From: Candidatus Thorarchaeota archaeon
GTDB lineage: Archaea > Asgardarchaeota > Thorarchaeia > Thorarchaeales > Thorarchaeaceae
Direction of reading: 5' to 3'
Length of the DNA stretch: 15,384 bases
Assembly: GCA_016841005.1 (NCBI GenBank)
Contig: JAEORG010000097.1
Location: 1 to 15,384, forward strand
The position numbers and the translations under genes are program-made. Position 1 is the first letter of the stretch. Each line of letters begins with the position of its first letter. Shown here piece by piece: positions 4,645 through 14,018 of the stretch. The notes beneath the pieces are model-generated. The model had not been told where the DNA came from. It ran no database searches and was given only the letters and a program-made list of their open reading frames with translations.

Positions 4645-5226
4645 TCAACTTGTTACACGAAAGATTGAGCTATTAGCGGAAGATGAGGGAACCTCAAGTG
4701 CCCGAGCTTCATAGACAACAGTCCCAAGCATCTTGAACATGTTTTGTACATTATCACCAGTCTTGACAGACATGACTATACTCTCTGCACCAATCTCTTC
4801 TCCAAATGCTTGAAGCTCGTCGAGGCTAACTGCATGATCAGGCAAATCAAATTTGTTTGCTGCAAGAACCATCGGAACACTCTTTCCTATCCCATCTTCA
4901 GCCTCTTTAATCCACTTGGGAAGCGCTTCAAAAGATTCTCGATTTGTGATATCAAACATTAAGACAATTCCTCTTGCAGCACGATAGAACATTGGTCTAA
5001 CGAACTTGAACTTGTCTTGACCGCCTAGGTCCCATACAATCACCTTAACATCAGTAGGACCTTCTGGACTATCAATCTGTATTAGCTGAGTTGAGTGTTG
5101 CACACCCACAGTCACTTGGTACTCTTCGCTAAAGATACCTTGAGAGAATCGGCGCACTGCGCTGCTCTTTCCCACTCCGCCGTCACCTATCACGCATACT
5201 TTGTAGATAAATGACAGACTACTCAT
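4645..5226 (-). CDS. Ras/Rab-like small GTPase
   Basis: A 193-residue single-domain GTPase with all five G motifs: P-loop GDGGVGKS (14-21), switch-I Thr39 in VTVG, WDLGGQ (65-70) with the catalytic Gln, NKFD (124-127) for guanine specificity, and SVK (153-155) in place of SAK. The layout matches eukaryotic Rab/Ras more than the bacterial MglA type. Asgard genomes carry many such GTPases. The C-terminus is Ser-rich and has no Cys, so there is no prenylation box; the N-terminus has no obvious lipidation signal, suggesting a cytosolic or adaptor-recruited switch. The ATG at 5226 is chosen because GGAGAGG (5233-5239) ends directly at the earlier ATG (5232) and is correctly spaced, 6 nt, only for 5226. 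It has its own promoter with a striking palindrome. Effector and GAP/GEF partners are unknown. Confidence 0.93.
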   Translation of the reverse strand: MSSLSFIYKVCVIGDGGVGKSSAVRRFSQGIFSEEYQVTVGVQHSTQLIQIDSPEGPTDVKVIVWDLGGQDKFKFVRPMFYRAARGIVLMFDITNRESFEALPKWIKEAEDGIGKSVPMVLAANKFDLPDHAVSLDELQAFGEEIGAESIVMSVKTGDNVQNMFKMLGTVVYEARALEVPSSSANSSIFRVTS

Positions 5227-5232
5227 GTGCAT

Positions 5233-8175: not shown

Positions 8176-11100
8176 CTAGAGATCTTCTGGTTTCAGAAGC
8201 TTTGTCTTAGCCTGAAATATAGGACCAACAATGCTCATAACGAATTTGACGAATCCAGCATCTTCTGACACAACACCTATGACATCACTATCAATCGATG
8301 CTGCAGGCGCCATAAGGACTTCCTCGCTATCGCGAACACATGCAAAGACATCCTTCTCACTTCTAATTCTAACACGAATATTGCCCTTTCCAACGAGTGG
8401 CTTAACATTCGGACCCAATGCACCACTTTCAGTGACGACTAACTCAACTCCGACAACTGTCTTGAGTTCGGTTAAGGTTTCTGTTGGAACATCACCAACT
8501 TCAGGTACAATAAGGGTCACTTTGGACTTTGCCCGAGTCAACATGTCCTTGATATGAGCATTTACCGCGTCTCTCGTAACAACATTCCATGTCTTCTTTG
8601 CGCCTGGAAAGTCTGCAGCTTTGACTCGATCCCAGACTTGTGATAACCGTTCAGCAATATCACTAGTATCAACCTCATCATCTGAAGGAGTTGCAAATGC
8701 CTGCTCCAGAGTCTTTTCAGTTAAGCCTATCATTGGGCTCTCTTCTAGCTTCTCGATTGTTTTATTCAAGGTAGTATTCAAAGAATCTAGCTGATTATTG
8801 AGTTGTTCGTAGCTTTCACCAATGTCCTGCTTTACTTTGGATGATACTCCTTCCAGTTCAGCTCCTGAAACCTCTAGATGATTTGTTAGAAGTTCTCGAG
8901 TCTTTGTTCTTAGATCAGCACCAGCTGTTGATAACGACTCCCTCAATCCTTCATTGACCTCATCAATTTTTGATGCCATGTCCGACATAGCGTTGTCTAT
9001 TTGCTGACTTCCTGTACTCATCTTTACCTCAAAACCAGAGGCAAATGATTTCACACCATCTTGAACCTTACTTGAAAATTCATCCTTATGAGTAGAAATC
9101 AATGAGGAAAGAGAGGACATGGATTCCAACGTTCCATCCTTAACTTGATCTACTACTGAAGTAAAGGAAGTTGTTGACTCACTAAGCACAGTTTTTGCAT
9201 CCTGAGATGCGGTACTTAACGCATCGTTAACAGAGGATTTTGATGATTCGACCTGTGATGAAATTCTATCAGATGCCCCTCTCATTGATCCCCGAATCTC
9301 ATTGGTTGTTATGGTAGCTTGTTCTTCGGCACTTTTTTTACCTTCAGTTGCAATAGCGGAAATCCTTGTTGAGAGAGATTCTGCTGTCTGCTGAATCTTG
9401 CTGGATGTTGCTTGAACTAGATTATCATTCGATTCAGAGAAACTCTCAGAAGCAGCGGTCGCAGACTGCTTGAATTCAGTGGTAGTATGCATTACAGAAT
9501 CCTTCGATGTCTGTATCGTGGTTTGGAGTTCAGCATTAAATTCGTCAAGTACAGCCTTGGCTCCCGCGGAAACCTGAGTGATAGCATCGGATGTGGCTTG
9601 ATTTAAGTCACTCAATTTTGATTCAAGTTCCTGATTTGCCTGCTCTGCAGAAGATTCCATTGCAGATAGCATTCCATTGTAACTAGTATCAATTTTTGTT
9701 GAAAGGTCATCAAGAGCCTGAGAAATGGACTCCATCTGAGTAGTAACGACAGTCTGAATATCCGTGAGCATCTGCTGTAGGCTGTTCCTAAGGTTCTCCT
9801 TTCGTGAGCTTATAATTGAACGAGTGTCTTGAGTTACTTCGGAAGAATACTGCTTGAGCGAGTCGTGTTGCCTTTGAACTGAAGTACTTGCAGCGTTTTT
9901 CATAGACTTCATTGTAGTATCCATGAATGATTTCGAACGTGTTTCGAGATCATCCACTTTTGAAGAAACGGATTGAAGTGTTGAATCAGCTGATGATAAT
10001 AACTGCGTATGTGATTCATCCAATTTTGTTTCCAAATCTTGAGCTGCGGCATCCTGACGAGTTCTCATCGTAGAATATGCCTGATCAACTTTCACACCAT
10101 GCTCCTGTATGTAACCCTCTTCCTCAGCTGATTTCTCTTTAATGGCTGCATTGATATCCTGTTCTAATGATGAATATTGATTCTCAAGGTTTGTTTTGAC
10201 CGTGTTTATGATCTCTGTTACTTTACCTTCTCCTTGAGATATTGCACTTGTTATTTCATCCGCAGTTGTACTTAATGAGGATACAACAGATTGATTGATA
10301 CTATTTAGAGAGGACGTGGCTTTAGATTCAACCTCGCTAATCTTTGTTAGTATAGATTCCTTCTCCTGATCAAGTTGCATTTCAACCGAATCAGACTGCT
10401 GTTGTATTCTCGCTCTGGTAGAGGTATCCAATGTTGCTAGAGAAGAGGTCAAATCATTCTGGAAGGTATTCGCAAGTTCAGCAGCATCTGTCCTTGCAGA
10501 ATCAAAGGACTGCTTCATCCTGATTCCTGACTCGGTAGTTATCTGATGGAGGCCAGTTTTTGCTGAGTCGAGGATACTAGTGTTGGAACTTTTCCAGTTG
10601 CTGAATAAATCAGAAGATTCACTGTCGTATTTCTGTTGAGCTGCCTCTCTAAGTGTTGACCAAGTGCCTTCCTTTGAAGTGACTCTTTCGAGTGATGAAC
10701 TCTTAGCACTTACAACATTGTTCTTCAAAGAAGAAACTGAATCTACGTTTTGCTTCGTCATCTCGATTATGGCATCTCTAACGGTAGTTGAAGCCTCTCG
10801 TATCTGCTCTTTGAGTTCATCACGCATAGTCTGTATTCTGTGAGAAACCTGTTGGACTTCTTCTGCAAGCCCATCAAATGGTGGAACTGCTTGGAACCTC
10901 GGAATAAGCCCAGGAAGTTCGACTATCATCTTCCGCTCTTTGAGCCTCTCGATTTGTTCCTCTATTTGTCCTAGAGACTTTCCTTTGCTCAGTAATGCTA
11001 AATCTCCTAGAGTTGCATTTCCGTATGCAATCACCAAGGAATAGATCTCAAGTTCAGACACACTGACTCCAAGAAGATCGTTGGATTTTTTAGGTGGTCG

Positions 11101-11205
11101 TCTGAAATCGTCTTCAGATGTTTCAATTTCTTCTGCTGAGGTCTCTTCTTCGTCCTCAGTAGAATCTTCTTCAATTTCATCATTATATTCTTCAGGCAAT
11201 CTCAT
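8176..11205 (-). CDS. Giant TrmB-like protein: winged helix, ~700-residue Ser/Thr-rich coiled coil, TrmB-like C-terminal domain
   Basis: From the ATG at 11205 this is 1009 residues. Residues ~1-40 are very acidic. Residues 43-112 form a TrmB-type winged helix (LLGVSVSELEIYSLVIAYG, then GQIEEQIERLKERKMIV and the typical RFQAVPPFDGL end). About 114-824 is an uninterrupted helical region packed with Ser, Thr, Gln, Glu, Asp, Lys and Ala and almost no Pro or Gly. Residues ~869-999 (TWNVVTRDAVNAHIKDMLTRA, shown as TWNVVTRDAVNAHI then KDMLTRAKSKVTLIVP) resemble the sensor domain that follows the coil in TrmB regulators. Normal TrmB proteins are about 260-350 residues with one short dimerising coil. 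There is no membrane helix. The reading frame continues to 11403, but its last part is antisense to the GNAT gene; the ATG at 11205 has GAGGAG before it, and GTG at 11289 is an alternative. Domain calls are fairly sure; function (regulator, chromosome- or cytoskeleton-related scaffold) is unknown. Confidence 0.85.
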   Translation of the reverse strand: MRLPEEYNDEIEEDSTEDEEETSAEEIETSEDDFRRPPKKSNDLLGVSVSELEIYSLVIAYGNATLGDLALLSKGKSLGQIEEQIERLKERKMIVELPGLIPRFQAVPPFDGLAEEVQQVSHRIQTMRDELKEQIREASTTVRDAIIEMTKQNVDSVSSLKNNVVSAKSSSLERVTSKEGTWSTLREAAQQKYDSESSDLFSNWKSSNTSILDSAKTGLHQITTESGIRMKQSFDSARTDAAELANTFQNDLTSSLATLDTSTRARIQQQSDSVEMQLDQEKESILTKISEVESKATSSLNSINQSVVSSLSTTADEITSAISQGEGKVTEIINTVKTNLENQYSSLEQDINAAIKEKSAEEEGYIQEHGVKVDQAYSTMRTRQDAAAQDLETKLDESHTQLLSSADSTLQSVSSKVDDLETRSKSFMDTTMKSMKNAASTSVQRQHDSLKQYSSEVTQDTRSIISSRKENLRNSLQQMLTDIQTVVTTQMESISQALDDLSTKIDTSYNGMLSAMESSAEQANQELESKLSDLNQATSDAITQVSAGAKAVLDEFNAELQTTIQTSKDSVMHTTTEFKQSATAASESFSESNDNLVQATSSKIQQTAESLSTRISAIATEGKKSAEEQATITTNEIRGSMRGASDRISSQVESSKSSVNDALSTASQDAKTVLSESTTSFTSVVDQVKDGTLESMSSLSSLISTHKDEFSSKVQDGVKSFASGFEVKMSTGSQQIDNAMSDMASKIDEVNEGLRESLSTAGADLRTKTRELLTNHLEVSGAELEGVSSKVKQDIGESYEQLNNQLDSLNTTLNKTIEKLEESPMIGLTEKTLEQAFATPSDDEVDTSDIAERLSQVWDRVKAADFPGAKKTWNVVTRDAVNAHIKDMLTRAKSKVTLIVPEVGDVPTETLTELKTVVGVELVVTESGALGPNVKPLVGKGNIRVRIRSEKDVFACVRDSEEVLMAPAASIDSDVIGVVSEDAGFVKFVMSIVGPIFQAKTKLLKPEDL

Positions 11206-11294: not shown

Positions 11295-11304
11295 GATTAT
11301 ATGC
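11295..11304 (-). promoter_or_regulatory. Possible TATA element for the giant TrmB-like gene
   Basis: GCATATAATC on the minus strand would start transcription near 11275 and give a leader of about 70 nt to the ATG at 11205. It lies within the open upstream extension of the same frame, so it is meaningful only if that extension is not translated. Confidence 0.25.
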
Positions 11305-11330: not shown

Positions 11331-12110
11331 GTGCATACAATGGTTGTAGAAATTCCCCTAGATATGCGTGAAGAACTACTCCCTCTGTTTGACAGCCATC
11401 CATACCTTCATGCGTTATCCGAGGCGTTGCTTAAGGAAAAGCTTGGCCAAGCTTTCTCAGATGATCTAGAGAGTCCGCATGTAGCGCTTCTACTTTACAG
11501 GGGGCTCGTTTTCATTGCAGGTGATGCAAGCCATATCTCTGTTGATGAGCTTGTTAGAAAGATACCTGAAAAATGGTTTATCATTCCACCTCCAGGAGCT
11601 TGGGAAGATCTGCTAAAGAAAACTTGGGGAGATAGTCTGAGATCGTTACAAAGAACAAAATTCTCGTCAGAGAACTTGGATGCCAAAAAAATGATGGAGA
11701 TACAATCCAACCTGCCGAACGGAATGAAAATTGAGCAAGTTTCAATCGATTCAATCAATGAAATTTCTCAACAAGCTAAGCAGGTGATATCACTAATATT
11801 TCCGTCCCTACAAGTATTCATGGAGAGGAACTTTGGCTTCCTGATTAGGGAGGATGAAAAAATCGTTTCCCTTGCATTAGCTGCTTCACCTCTATACTCT
11901 AACGAATTTGAGATTCACATTGAAACACATCCAGACTATCAAAAGCGTGGATTAGCAATGATCTCAGCAGCGAAATTAATCCAGTATAGTCTAGAGCATG
12001 GGTTGACCCCCCATTGGGATGCTGAAAATCATCCGTCTGCAAAACTCGCTACTAAACTTGGTTTTACTGAACCTGAAGTATACAATGGATACTATTGGAT
12101 ACAGGAATAG
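11331..12110 (+). CDS. GNAT-family N-acetyltransferase
   Basis: A 259-residue protein with an unassigned N-terminal half (about 1-130) and a C-terminal GNAT acetyltransferase domain. The acetyl-CoA pyrophosphate loop is visible in HPDYQKRGLAMISAAKLI (about 200-217), with Q-K-R-G-L-A fitting Q/R-x-x-G-x-G/A. The WDAENHPSAKLATKLGF segment (about 229-245) is the usual Trp/Asn-x-x-S-x-x-L-A-x-K-L-G-F end of the domain. The two-part arrangement resembles the GNAT_acetyltran family related to zwittermicin-resistance proteins. The acceptor substrate is unknown. The start is GTG 11331, chosen for the GGAGG 5 nt upstream. It is divergent from the giant TrmB-like gene, and the longest reading of that gene would overlap this 5' end. 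It is followed at 81 bp by the hydrolase-membrane fusion, which has its own likely promoter. Confidence 0.85.
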   Translation: MHTMVVEIPLDMREELLPLFDSHPYLHALSEALLKEKLGQAFSDDLESPHVALLLYRGLVFIAGDASHISVDELVRKIPEKWFIIPPPGAWEDLLKKTWGDSLRSLQRTKFSSENLDAKKMMEIQSNLPNGMKIEQVSIDSINEISQQAKQVISLIFPSLQVFMERNFGFLIREDEKIVSLALAASPLYSNEFEIHIETHPDYQKRGLAMISAAKLIQYSLEHGLTPHWDAENHPSAKLATKLGFTEPEVYNGYYWIQE

Positions 12111-12191: not shown

Positions 12192-14018
12192 ATGAGTTTT
12201 CTAAGAAAACTAGGTAGAAAGAAGCAGCTCGTTCTGTTCTGTTTAATTCTAATTGGAACCTCAGCTGTGGCCGCAGATCTGATTCAGACAGATTTCGGTG
12301 CAATAGATGTCGAATATATCAGAATAATCGAGGAGAATGGGTTAGCAGTGACTGGGAAATTGTATCACCCACTCTCAGCAACTGCTGATAACCCTGCACC
12401 CGCAGTACTCCTACTTCATGGTATGAACAACGACAAAGATACCGAAGGACCTACTGCACTCGAGCTCGCGAAGAGAGGAATTGTTGCACTTACTATCGAT
12501 GAAATCAGTCATGGGGACTCAGATAGACTTGTAGATGTATTGGGTTATTTCTTGGGTACTTCACAATCAACTCTTGGAGCTAATGCATCGTATCAATGGT
12601 TGAAAGGACTTGCCTTTGTTGATGGTACCCGATTAGGTTTAATCGGGCACTCAATGGGTGCTGGCACAGCCTCAGCTGTAGCTCAACTGAATCCTGATCA
12701 TCGCGCAATAGTAATTCAAGCGGATGGACCATATAATCTCACAACTCATAGTTACATGAACAACTATCTGGCAGTGTGGTCATTCTACGAAGAATTGTTC
12801 ACAACCCAACCTCGTGATGAGTTCCTGCGAGATAGTTTAGATATGATTGCATATAATGAAGGACTCTCAGATGCTTCTGCAGCCCAAGCTGATCATACTT
12901 ATGGAACCTTTTCTGATGGGTCAGCCCATAGATATGCACAATGCCCCTGTACACATCCAGGGGCAACATGGAATTCCAAGGGTGTAAGTGAAGCAACATC
13001 CTGGATGCTTCAAGCTCTGATGGGGCTGGGTGAATCAGCTGCACAAGCATTGTCTGCAGAATCAACTCAGACATACATGATCCGAGAAGGTGCAACTCTT
13101 TTTGCCCTCATCGTATCAGTACTTTCATTGATACCTTTATCAAGTATCCTCTTAGAGATTCCATACTTCAGTGAGATTGCCAGACCACTCCCACAGAAGA
13201 TACCAACTGAAGGGAAGCGCTGGTGGATATTTGCACTACTAAATGCGTTCATAGGTGGTATCACATTCCTATGCCTACCGAACTTGGGATTACTCGGTGG
13301 AGCATTTCTTGGTTCAATATTACCAATATTCCTTCTTGTAACTGGAAACGGTTTATTGGTCTGGTTCCTAGTTAATGCATTAATTGCATACATCTTCTAC
13401 AGATACTGGTTTAAGAAAGAATCTGCGAATGAAGAAGGGATAACATACGAAGATGTTGGGCGTTTCAAGACCTTCAGAGACCCTGAGAGTAGTGATGTCA
13501 TCTTTAGAACAATCGTATTATCAATAGTTTTGTTCTCATACTTATACATACTTGTAGCAGCATCACAGGAGTTCCTTGGAATTGAGTTTAGGTACATGTG
13601 GCCGGTTCTAAAGGAATTTACACCTGATAAATTTGGACAATTTCTGGTTAACATCGTTCCAGTGTTTCCATTCTTTCTGATTAACGGTGGAGTCTTTGCA
13701 TATGGCATGATTAGACAACCCGAGTCAGATTCACAACTGAAGACCCTACTCATTTGGTGGATCAAGATTGTCATTGCTATGGAGAGTGTCCTACTTATTC
13801 TGATCCTCGTGAACTATTTACCAATGTTCATGTTAGGAACAGGTCCAGTTCTAAACATGGGACTCTATGGTATCTTCTTGATGGCATATTTACCCATCTT
13901 CGCAGGCGTATTCTTCCTCATGACTGCATTCTATCAACAGACGGGCAGAATATATCTAGGATCAATCTTTAGCACACTTCTTGTTGTATGGATAATGACA
14001 GCTGGAATGTTGATTTGA
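12192..14018 (+). CDS. Alpha/beta hydrolase domain fused to a polytopic membrane domain
   Basis: A 608-residue protein. Residues 12-28 are a signal anchor or signal peptide (positive n-region RKLGRKK). Residues ~40-285 form an alpha/beta-hydrolase: oxyanion-loop LLLHGMNN (73-80), HGDSD loop (107-111), nucleophile elbow GHSMG (152-156, Ser154), and a late His255 in CPCTHPGATWN as the likely catalytic His; the acid residue is not certain. From ~299 to the end come about eight to ten transmembrane helices broken by one cytoplasmic or extracellular loop (about 408-435, KKESANEEG onward). With the N-terminal segment in the membrane, the hydrolase probably faces outside, acting on lipids, peptides or envelope esters; this is inference. 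GGGAGG lies 9 nt before the ATG. A strong terminator follows the stop. Spacing and its own promoter suggest a single-gene unit. Confidence 0.85.
   Translation: MSFLRKLGRKKQLVLFCLILIGTSAVAADLIQTDFGAIDVEYIRIIEENGLAVTGKLYHPLSATADNPAPAVLLLHGMNNDKDTEGPTALELAKRGIVALTIDEISHGDSDRLVDVLGYFLGTSQSTLGANASYQWLKGLAFVDGTRLGLIGHSMGAGTASAVAQLNPDHRAIVIQADGPYNLTTHSYMNNYLAVWSFYEELFTTQPRDEFLRDSLDMIAYNEGLSDASAAQADHTYGTFSDGSAHRYAQCPCTHPGATWNSKGVSEATSWMLQALMGLGESAAQALSAESTQTYMIREGATLFALIVSVLSLIPLSSILLEIPYFSEIARPLPQKIPTEGKRWWIFALLNAFIGGITFLCLPNLGLLGGAFLGSILPIFLLVTGNGLLVWFLVNALIAYIFYRYWFKKESANEEGITYEDVGRFKTFRDPESSDVIFRTIVLSIVLFSYLYILVAASQEFLGIEFRYMWPVLKEFTPDKFGQFLVNIVPVFPFFLINGGVFAYGMIRQPESDSQLKTLLIWWIKIVIAMESVLLILILVNYLPMFMLGTGPVLNMGLYGIFLMAYLPIFAGVFFLMTAFYQQTGRIYLGSIFSTLLVVWIMTAGMLI

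Follow-up and report, generated by a model that had tools for sequence, protein, structure and literature searches.

A TrmB-type protein with a predicted hendecad rod of about 105 nm in Thorarchaeota, and its relatives in an Asgard phylum

The gene and its two TrmB-type ends

The window, a stretch of 15,384 nucleotides of Candidatus Thorarchaeota DNA, carries on its minus strand an open frame (8176-11205) that encodes a three-part protein of 1009 amino acids, with the following features:

8176..11205, minus strand: whole gene, encoding an acidic tail, a TrmB-type winged helix, a hendecad rod and a PLD-like C-terminal domain
11071..11205, minus strand: tail at the N-terminus, residues 1-45, acidic (net charge -14) and modelled by AF2 with low confidence
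10870..11070, minus strand: TrmB-type winged helix, residues 46-112, recognition-helix Tyr replaced, assigned at the level of the family
8740..10860, minus strand: unbroken hendecad coil, residues 116-822, about 105 nm if straight
8656..8739, minus strand: linker, residues 823-850, holding a conserved ESPMxGLTE motif and, at 824, the first Pro beyond the coil
8179..8655, minus strand: C-terminal PLD-like domain, residues 851-1009, TrmBL2/TrmB-like, without the HKD motif

An alternative, longer reading of the gene starts at 11403. We prefer the start at 11205 because the close homologue P0002 begins at the matching place and a GAGGAG stands ahead of the ATG, and disfavour the other because the longer frame would run into the divergent GNAT gene at 11301 and beyond. 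Modelled by AF2 as a monomer from a 24-sequence alignment, the whole protein has a mean pLDDT of 69.2 and a pTM of 0.27, with residues 974-1009 below 50. The model consists of the low-confidence tail, a winged helix at 49-106, helices at 110-480 and 486-822 separated by a break at 481-485, and a C-terminal alpha/beta domain, which reached a pLDDT of 84.3 when modelled alone (19 Asgard sequences). Conservation is higher in the winged helix and in the C-terminal domain than in the coil between them.

The initial annotation had recognized the two ends of a TrmB regulator by eye, and the profile searches agree at both ends. PF01978 is found in 22 of 24 homologues at E ≤0.1, a profile of 18 sequences matches TrmBL2 and TrmB in the PDB with E values from 4e-11 to 2e-8, and several long ORFs exceed the PF01978 cut-off (for example 46 bits in a 1301-aa frame of genome G184); with the window protein by itself, no PF01978 match was obtained at 0.1. 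At the other end, the PF11495 match of the window protein spans positions 3-114 of 233 and the protein ends soon after, so that the PLD-like effector domain is present and the C-terminal sugar-binding subdomain is absent. TrmBL2 is the top Foldseek match of this domain. Because the C-terminal profile gave no significant match among PDB sequences (best E 0.5), the relation at this end rests on PF11495 and the fold. An enzymatic reading of the domain as an HKD nuclease or phospholipase was rejected, since the HxKxxxxD catalytic motif occurs in 0/19 and 0/24 of the sequences examined; the domain may have a regulatory role. PF28217 and PF27984, which are annotated on homologues, did not appear in our Pfam scans.

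The winged helix departs from its ordinary relatives in its recognition helix and its charge. The recognition-helix Tyr is present in 14/14 ordinary Asgard TrmBs and in 0/18 coil proteins, and an R or K precedes the Tyr position in 12/14 against 5/18, the ordinary set being the 14 of 30 PF01978 loci with frames of about 250-320 aa, whose selection by PF01978 score favours the canonical motif. The V-P-x-x-R/K-I/V-Y pattern of the ordinary proteins is missing from the coil members. The mean net charge of the winged helix is +2.3 in the ordinary proteins and -1.8 in the coil proteins (p = 0.0075); for the recognition helix by itself the difference in charge is not significant (p = 0.088). In the window protein the recognition helix has a net charge of +1 or +2, depending on where its limits are drawn, inside an acidic domain, and the segment ahead of the winged helix carries -11 to -21 in 18 of 24 members of group A, the group to which the window protein belongs. 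Basic recognition helices persist in the loci L049, L050 and L054, and paralogues may accordingly differ in whether they bind DNA. Together, the differences in Tyr, R/K and charge do not bear out the earlier description of the protein as DNA-tethered: tethering to DNA by the winged helix is putative and cannot be assumed.

A predicted hendecad rod and its length

A continuous helix of some 700 residues and roughly 100 nm had been proposed for the link, and the analysis confirms it in prediction. The AF2 helices of the coil region comprise 371 + 337 residues, and residues 116-822 contain no Pro and 21 Gly, 16 of them off the core. Specifically, the Fourier power of hydrophobicity over residues 116-838 at a period of 11/3 is 86.5 for the single sequence and 144.2 for the alignment mean, where shuffled sequences reach at most 11.2 and 11.7 respectively. 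The same test at 7/2 gives only 0.5 and 0.8, i.e., no heptad signal. The register holds throughout: between residue 106 and about 820, windows of 55 residues keep their phase within about 50 degrees. The coil thus shows the 11-residue repeat with an a/d/e/h core that defines a hendecad, with V/I/L at a, A/S at d, L/I at e and L/M/F at h, and mostly S/T/Q/E/D/K elsewhere. This narrow core fits a coiled coil, unlike the broad face of a lipid-binding helix. At a helix rise of 0.1485 nm per residue, 707 residues correspond to about 105 nm, and the coil is predicted to form a straight hendecad rod of that length and a period of 11/3.

The segment is 27% S+T and carries a net charge of -41 over residues 116-838. 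Its net-charge signal tracks the 11/3 period, and no clear long-range charge repeat was found; of the other periods, only 3.54 in the single sequence rises above the 95% level of the shuffles (9.3, the level being 8.8).

To compare lengths we measured from an N-terminal anchor Pro to a C-terminal anchor Thr. The distance is 763 residues in all 11 of the closest relatives (P0001-P0010 and L047_03, where P0001 is the window protein and P0002-P0010 share 82-86% identity with it at the C-terminus). Among 19 further homologues with both anchors, taken from the C-terminal search described below (P0017 gave no measurement), it is 875-877 in 13, and 767, 825, 829, 848, 855 and 874 in the remaining six. 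Of the 24 group A sequences in the alignment, 12 differ from one another in length by two residues at most, with a median coil identity of 21% (16-96%, 66 pairs) and a C-terminal identity of 66%. In a second set of paralogues, Thor group B, the distance is 1090-1091 in 5/5 at a coil identity of 25-36%. Length is therefore fixed within clades while the coil sequence drifts, and there is no universal length across clades: hendecad members overall span 531-1553 residues between anchors, and neighbours in the tree can differ as much as L052 (1090) and L053 (1507).

Two members outside Thor group B, L051 in genome G078 (1091) and L052 in genome G086 (1090; Helarchaeota, through P0033), have nearly the same length as that group at a coil identity of only 10-18% to it and to each other. 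Conservation of 1090-1091 across Asgard lineages is suggestive only and may be due to chance. The reading is weakened because the two were set beside Thor group B after their lengths were known, because other members linked to the partner gene described below have lengths of 810, 875, 1023 and 1507, and because L052 groups with L053. Steps in length that keep the helical phase were not significantly favoured among the 25 distinct lengths (p = 0.12).

As a control we used SMC of the same genomes as the rods, in which the distance from Walker A to the stop is 1164 aa in 12 of 13 genomes, with a median arm identity of 48-49%. The idea that length constancy is unique to the rods is thereby rejected, though the SMC arms are more alike, and the length of group A persists at lower sequence identity than that of the SMC arms. 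Since SMC is equally constant, fixed length alone is no proof of a ruler.

Relatives, paralogues and neighbouring genes

With the C-terminal 160 aa as a query we found 29 proteins at 61-86% identity; those with a named source are from Thorarchaeota or Lokiarchaeota, the others carry a family-type name only, and the three genome-contig loci among them are Thorarchaeota. We then used 227 genomes of the phylum of genome G001, which is taken as the Asgard phylum because G001 contains a Thorarchaeota locus. The full-length profile has matches in 213 of these genomes and the C-terminal profile in 223, the latter being a tally of the domain and not of the rod. Among the 150 C-terminal matches listed, 142 lie in open frames of at least 594 aa from at least 127 genomes (hand count), and 8 in shorter frames. 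Two protein searches for relatives outside Asgard archaea gave a single protein each, in one case a record of 100% identity and in the other the query, and we do not claim that the family is confined to Asgard archaea. On viral contigs, 33 stretches matched a pattern and 0 were confirmed.

The three-part architecture recurs: 36 ORFs among the fetched loci have both ends, some of them near-copies, and in 35, whose coils have 367-1497 residues, the best period departs from 11/3 by no more than 0.02. The sole exception, L094_04 (649 aa), has both ends and a middle without a hendecad, and may be an intermediate or shortened form. Group A and Thor group B have high power at 11/3 itself. Elsewhere (e.g., L053 and L092) the best period frequently lies a little away from this value (for L053 the power is 107 at 3.660 against 8 at 11/3), so the register drifts there. 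Two members of 1800 aa, L049:7458-12845 and L050:6914-12337, have about 1550 residues between anchors (about 220 nm if extended); their coils contain 13-14 Pro and give a weaker signal at 11/3.

In a tree of both ends from 35 proteins, group A including the window protein forms one clade of 12 (support 100/99); a separate clade holds the Thor group B paralogues. The two groups occur side by side in genomes G184, G195 and G216, and G218 has group A plus a 1308-aa frame with an N-terminal match. In G085, frames of 1734, 1054, 1048, 919, 724 and 634 aa, among others, exceed the PF01978 cut-off; those of 1734, 1048 and 919 aa also bear the C-terminal domain.

A search of 20 loci found no conserved direct neighbour of the window rod gene; the genes that adjoin it did not recur beside relatives. 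For three genes further off, the hydrolase window_13, the GTPase window_06 and window_01, one or two of the 20 loci contain a homologue. By eye, the frame at 12192-14018 of the window consists of an alpha/beta hydrolase domain and, after it, a long hydrophobic stretch; in L038 and L039 its homologues are separated from the rod gene by several genes. The frame at 4645-5232 is a Ras-type small GTPase (PF00071, E 5e-39), a class typical of Asgard genomes, and the frame at 1-819, with an open 5' end, presumably represents the C-terminal part of a MutL-like protein, judging by its motifs.

Among the paralogues, a Cys-rich gene of about 290 aa precedes the rod ORF on the same strand in 11 of 36 cases, none of them in group A. 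Examples are:

L051:6030-6914: Cys-rich gene
L052:12010-12870: Cys-rich gene

Its Cys residues C40, C43, C50, C56 and C79 (L051_06 numbering) are invariant in five sequences. Pfam gave no match for three members, and NCBIfam none near cut-off for the one member searched. The gene adjoins a rod gene in 11 of 19 loci and lies apart from it in 8, and 9 of the 11 adjacent cases come from loci picked for the rod gene; in loci picked for the Cys-rich gene, the rod gene stands beside it in 2/10. It occurs in 156 of the 227 genomes. The initial annotation had not remarked on the hendecad nature of the coil, on its spread through the phylum, on the constancy of length within clades or on the paralogues that have a partner gene upstream.

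What the rod may do

The closest known likeness is TrmBL2, a chromatin protein of Thermococcales. According to its published description (PMC4877046), TrmBL2 has a winged helix, a long amphipathic helix through which it dimerises and a PLD-like domain without the sugar-binding subdomain. It differs in having about 260 aa and a short linking helix and in coating DNA, whereas the rod protein has a link of about 707 residues and has lost the recognition signature. Sugar-responsive TrmB (PF01978 + PF11495) shares a homologous winged helix and the first part of the effector domain; the rod protein lacks its sugar-binding subdomain and its recognition-helix Tyr, and is about three times longer than the 342-aa TrmB (3qph). 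The arms of SMC are likewise long coils of strictly fixed length, but their best period, 3.48-3.56 in SMCs from four genomes of this phylum, is close to that of a heptad, and they belong to a protein with an ATPase head and a hinge. Since the Pfam matches of the window protein include no SMC or hinge family, the likeness to SMC is one of shape only. The filament, the SMC-like bridge and the mechanosensor put forward in the initial annotation are hypothetical roles. ZorA, a membrane protein of a defence system whose tail is a hendecad coil, gave weak matches to the coil of the rod and has no TrmB domains. A published survey reportedly covers hendecad coils. The search of the literature, made on titles and the openings of abstracts and with most subscription papers outside it, returned no description of long-coil TrmB proteins from Asgard archaea, in line with the initial view that no such system had been described.

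Given the computed domain identities, the hendecad helix, the wide Asgard spread, the constancy of length within clades and the loss of the TrmB recognition signature, we put at about even odds (0.5) that the protein, descended from a TrmBL2-like one, is a rigid, fixed-length spacer or tether that joins a partner of the winged helix to a partner of the C-terminal domain. The short dimerising helix between winged helix and PLD-like domain in a TrmBL2-like ancestor would have expanded into a hendecad coiled coil. We infer a parallel homodimer as the most likely arrangement, in which about 105 nm would separate two winged helices at one end from a PLD-like dimer at the opposite end. The winged helix would hold DNA, through non-canonical contacts, or a protein, and the C-terminal domain would dock its partner at a set distance from that target. 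Such a tether would have a role in the architecture of the cell or chromosome and not as a promoter switch.

The main rival, which is possible if on balance unlikely, is a cytoskeletal or scaffold rod that does not bind DNA, with the winged helix as a protein-binding or capping head and with lateral or end-to-end assembly. The missing Tyr (0/18) and the acidity of the winged helix and tail fit this explanation, and exact lengths within clades combined with a drifting sequence resemble filament-forming rods such as intermediate filaments. However, the coil has no clear long-range charge repeat, and the recognition helices of L049, L050 and L054 are still basic. We consider it less likely, and indeed doubtful, that the protein is a DNA-binding regulator or a TrmBL2-like nucleoid coat whose coil relays a signal or mechanical state of the PLD-like domain. 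Both TrmB-type domains are conserved and the 1301-aa frame of G184, like other long ORFs, exceeds the PF01978 cut-off, but the recognition signature is lost, the PF11495 match stops short of the sugar-binding part, and 700-1500 residues would not be needed for signalling.

Two further explanations concern the coil itself. All 24 members match PF01442 (best E 1.5e-35), and an 11-residue periodicity is common to apolipoproteins, which might suggest an amphipathic helix of the apolipoprotein or perilipin kind lying on membrane or lipid. This explanation is improbable: the window protein scores 81.7 bits against a PF01442 cut-off of 90 bits, its hydrophobic face comprises a, e and h plus a small d only, the mean hydrophobic moment is 0.33 at the net charge of -41, and when the HeliQuest formula and thresholds are applied to 690 windows, the strict lipid-binding discriminant admits only 1 and the lax one 51. 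We give next to no weight to a mostly disordered Ser/Thr-rich linker, an outcome against which the original reading of the coil was also to be checked. The S+T content would suit it, but the single-phase 11/3 power is many times that of the shuffles, the predicted helix runs through nearly the whole segment and Pro is absent.

Returning to the fixed-length spacer, a broader version of it is tentative and rather unlikely: rods of about 55-220 nm throughout the phylum that hold or measure the distance from the chromosome, or another winged-helix partner, to a structure of the cell, as an undescribed cytoskeleton- or kinetochore-like layer. A regulator seems to have been turned into an architectural protein, and the fixed-length hendecad rod is directly testable in vitro. 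If the interpretation is true, very long rods with TrmB-type ends would offer a candidate for a structural element among the archaea that stand nearest to eukaryotes.
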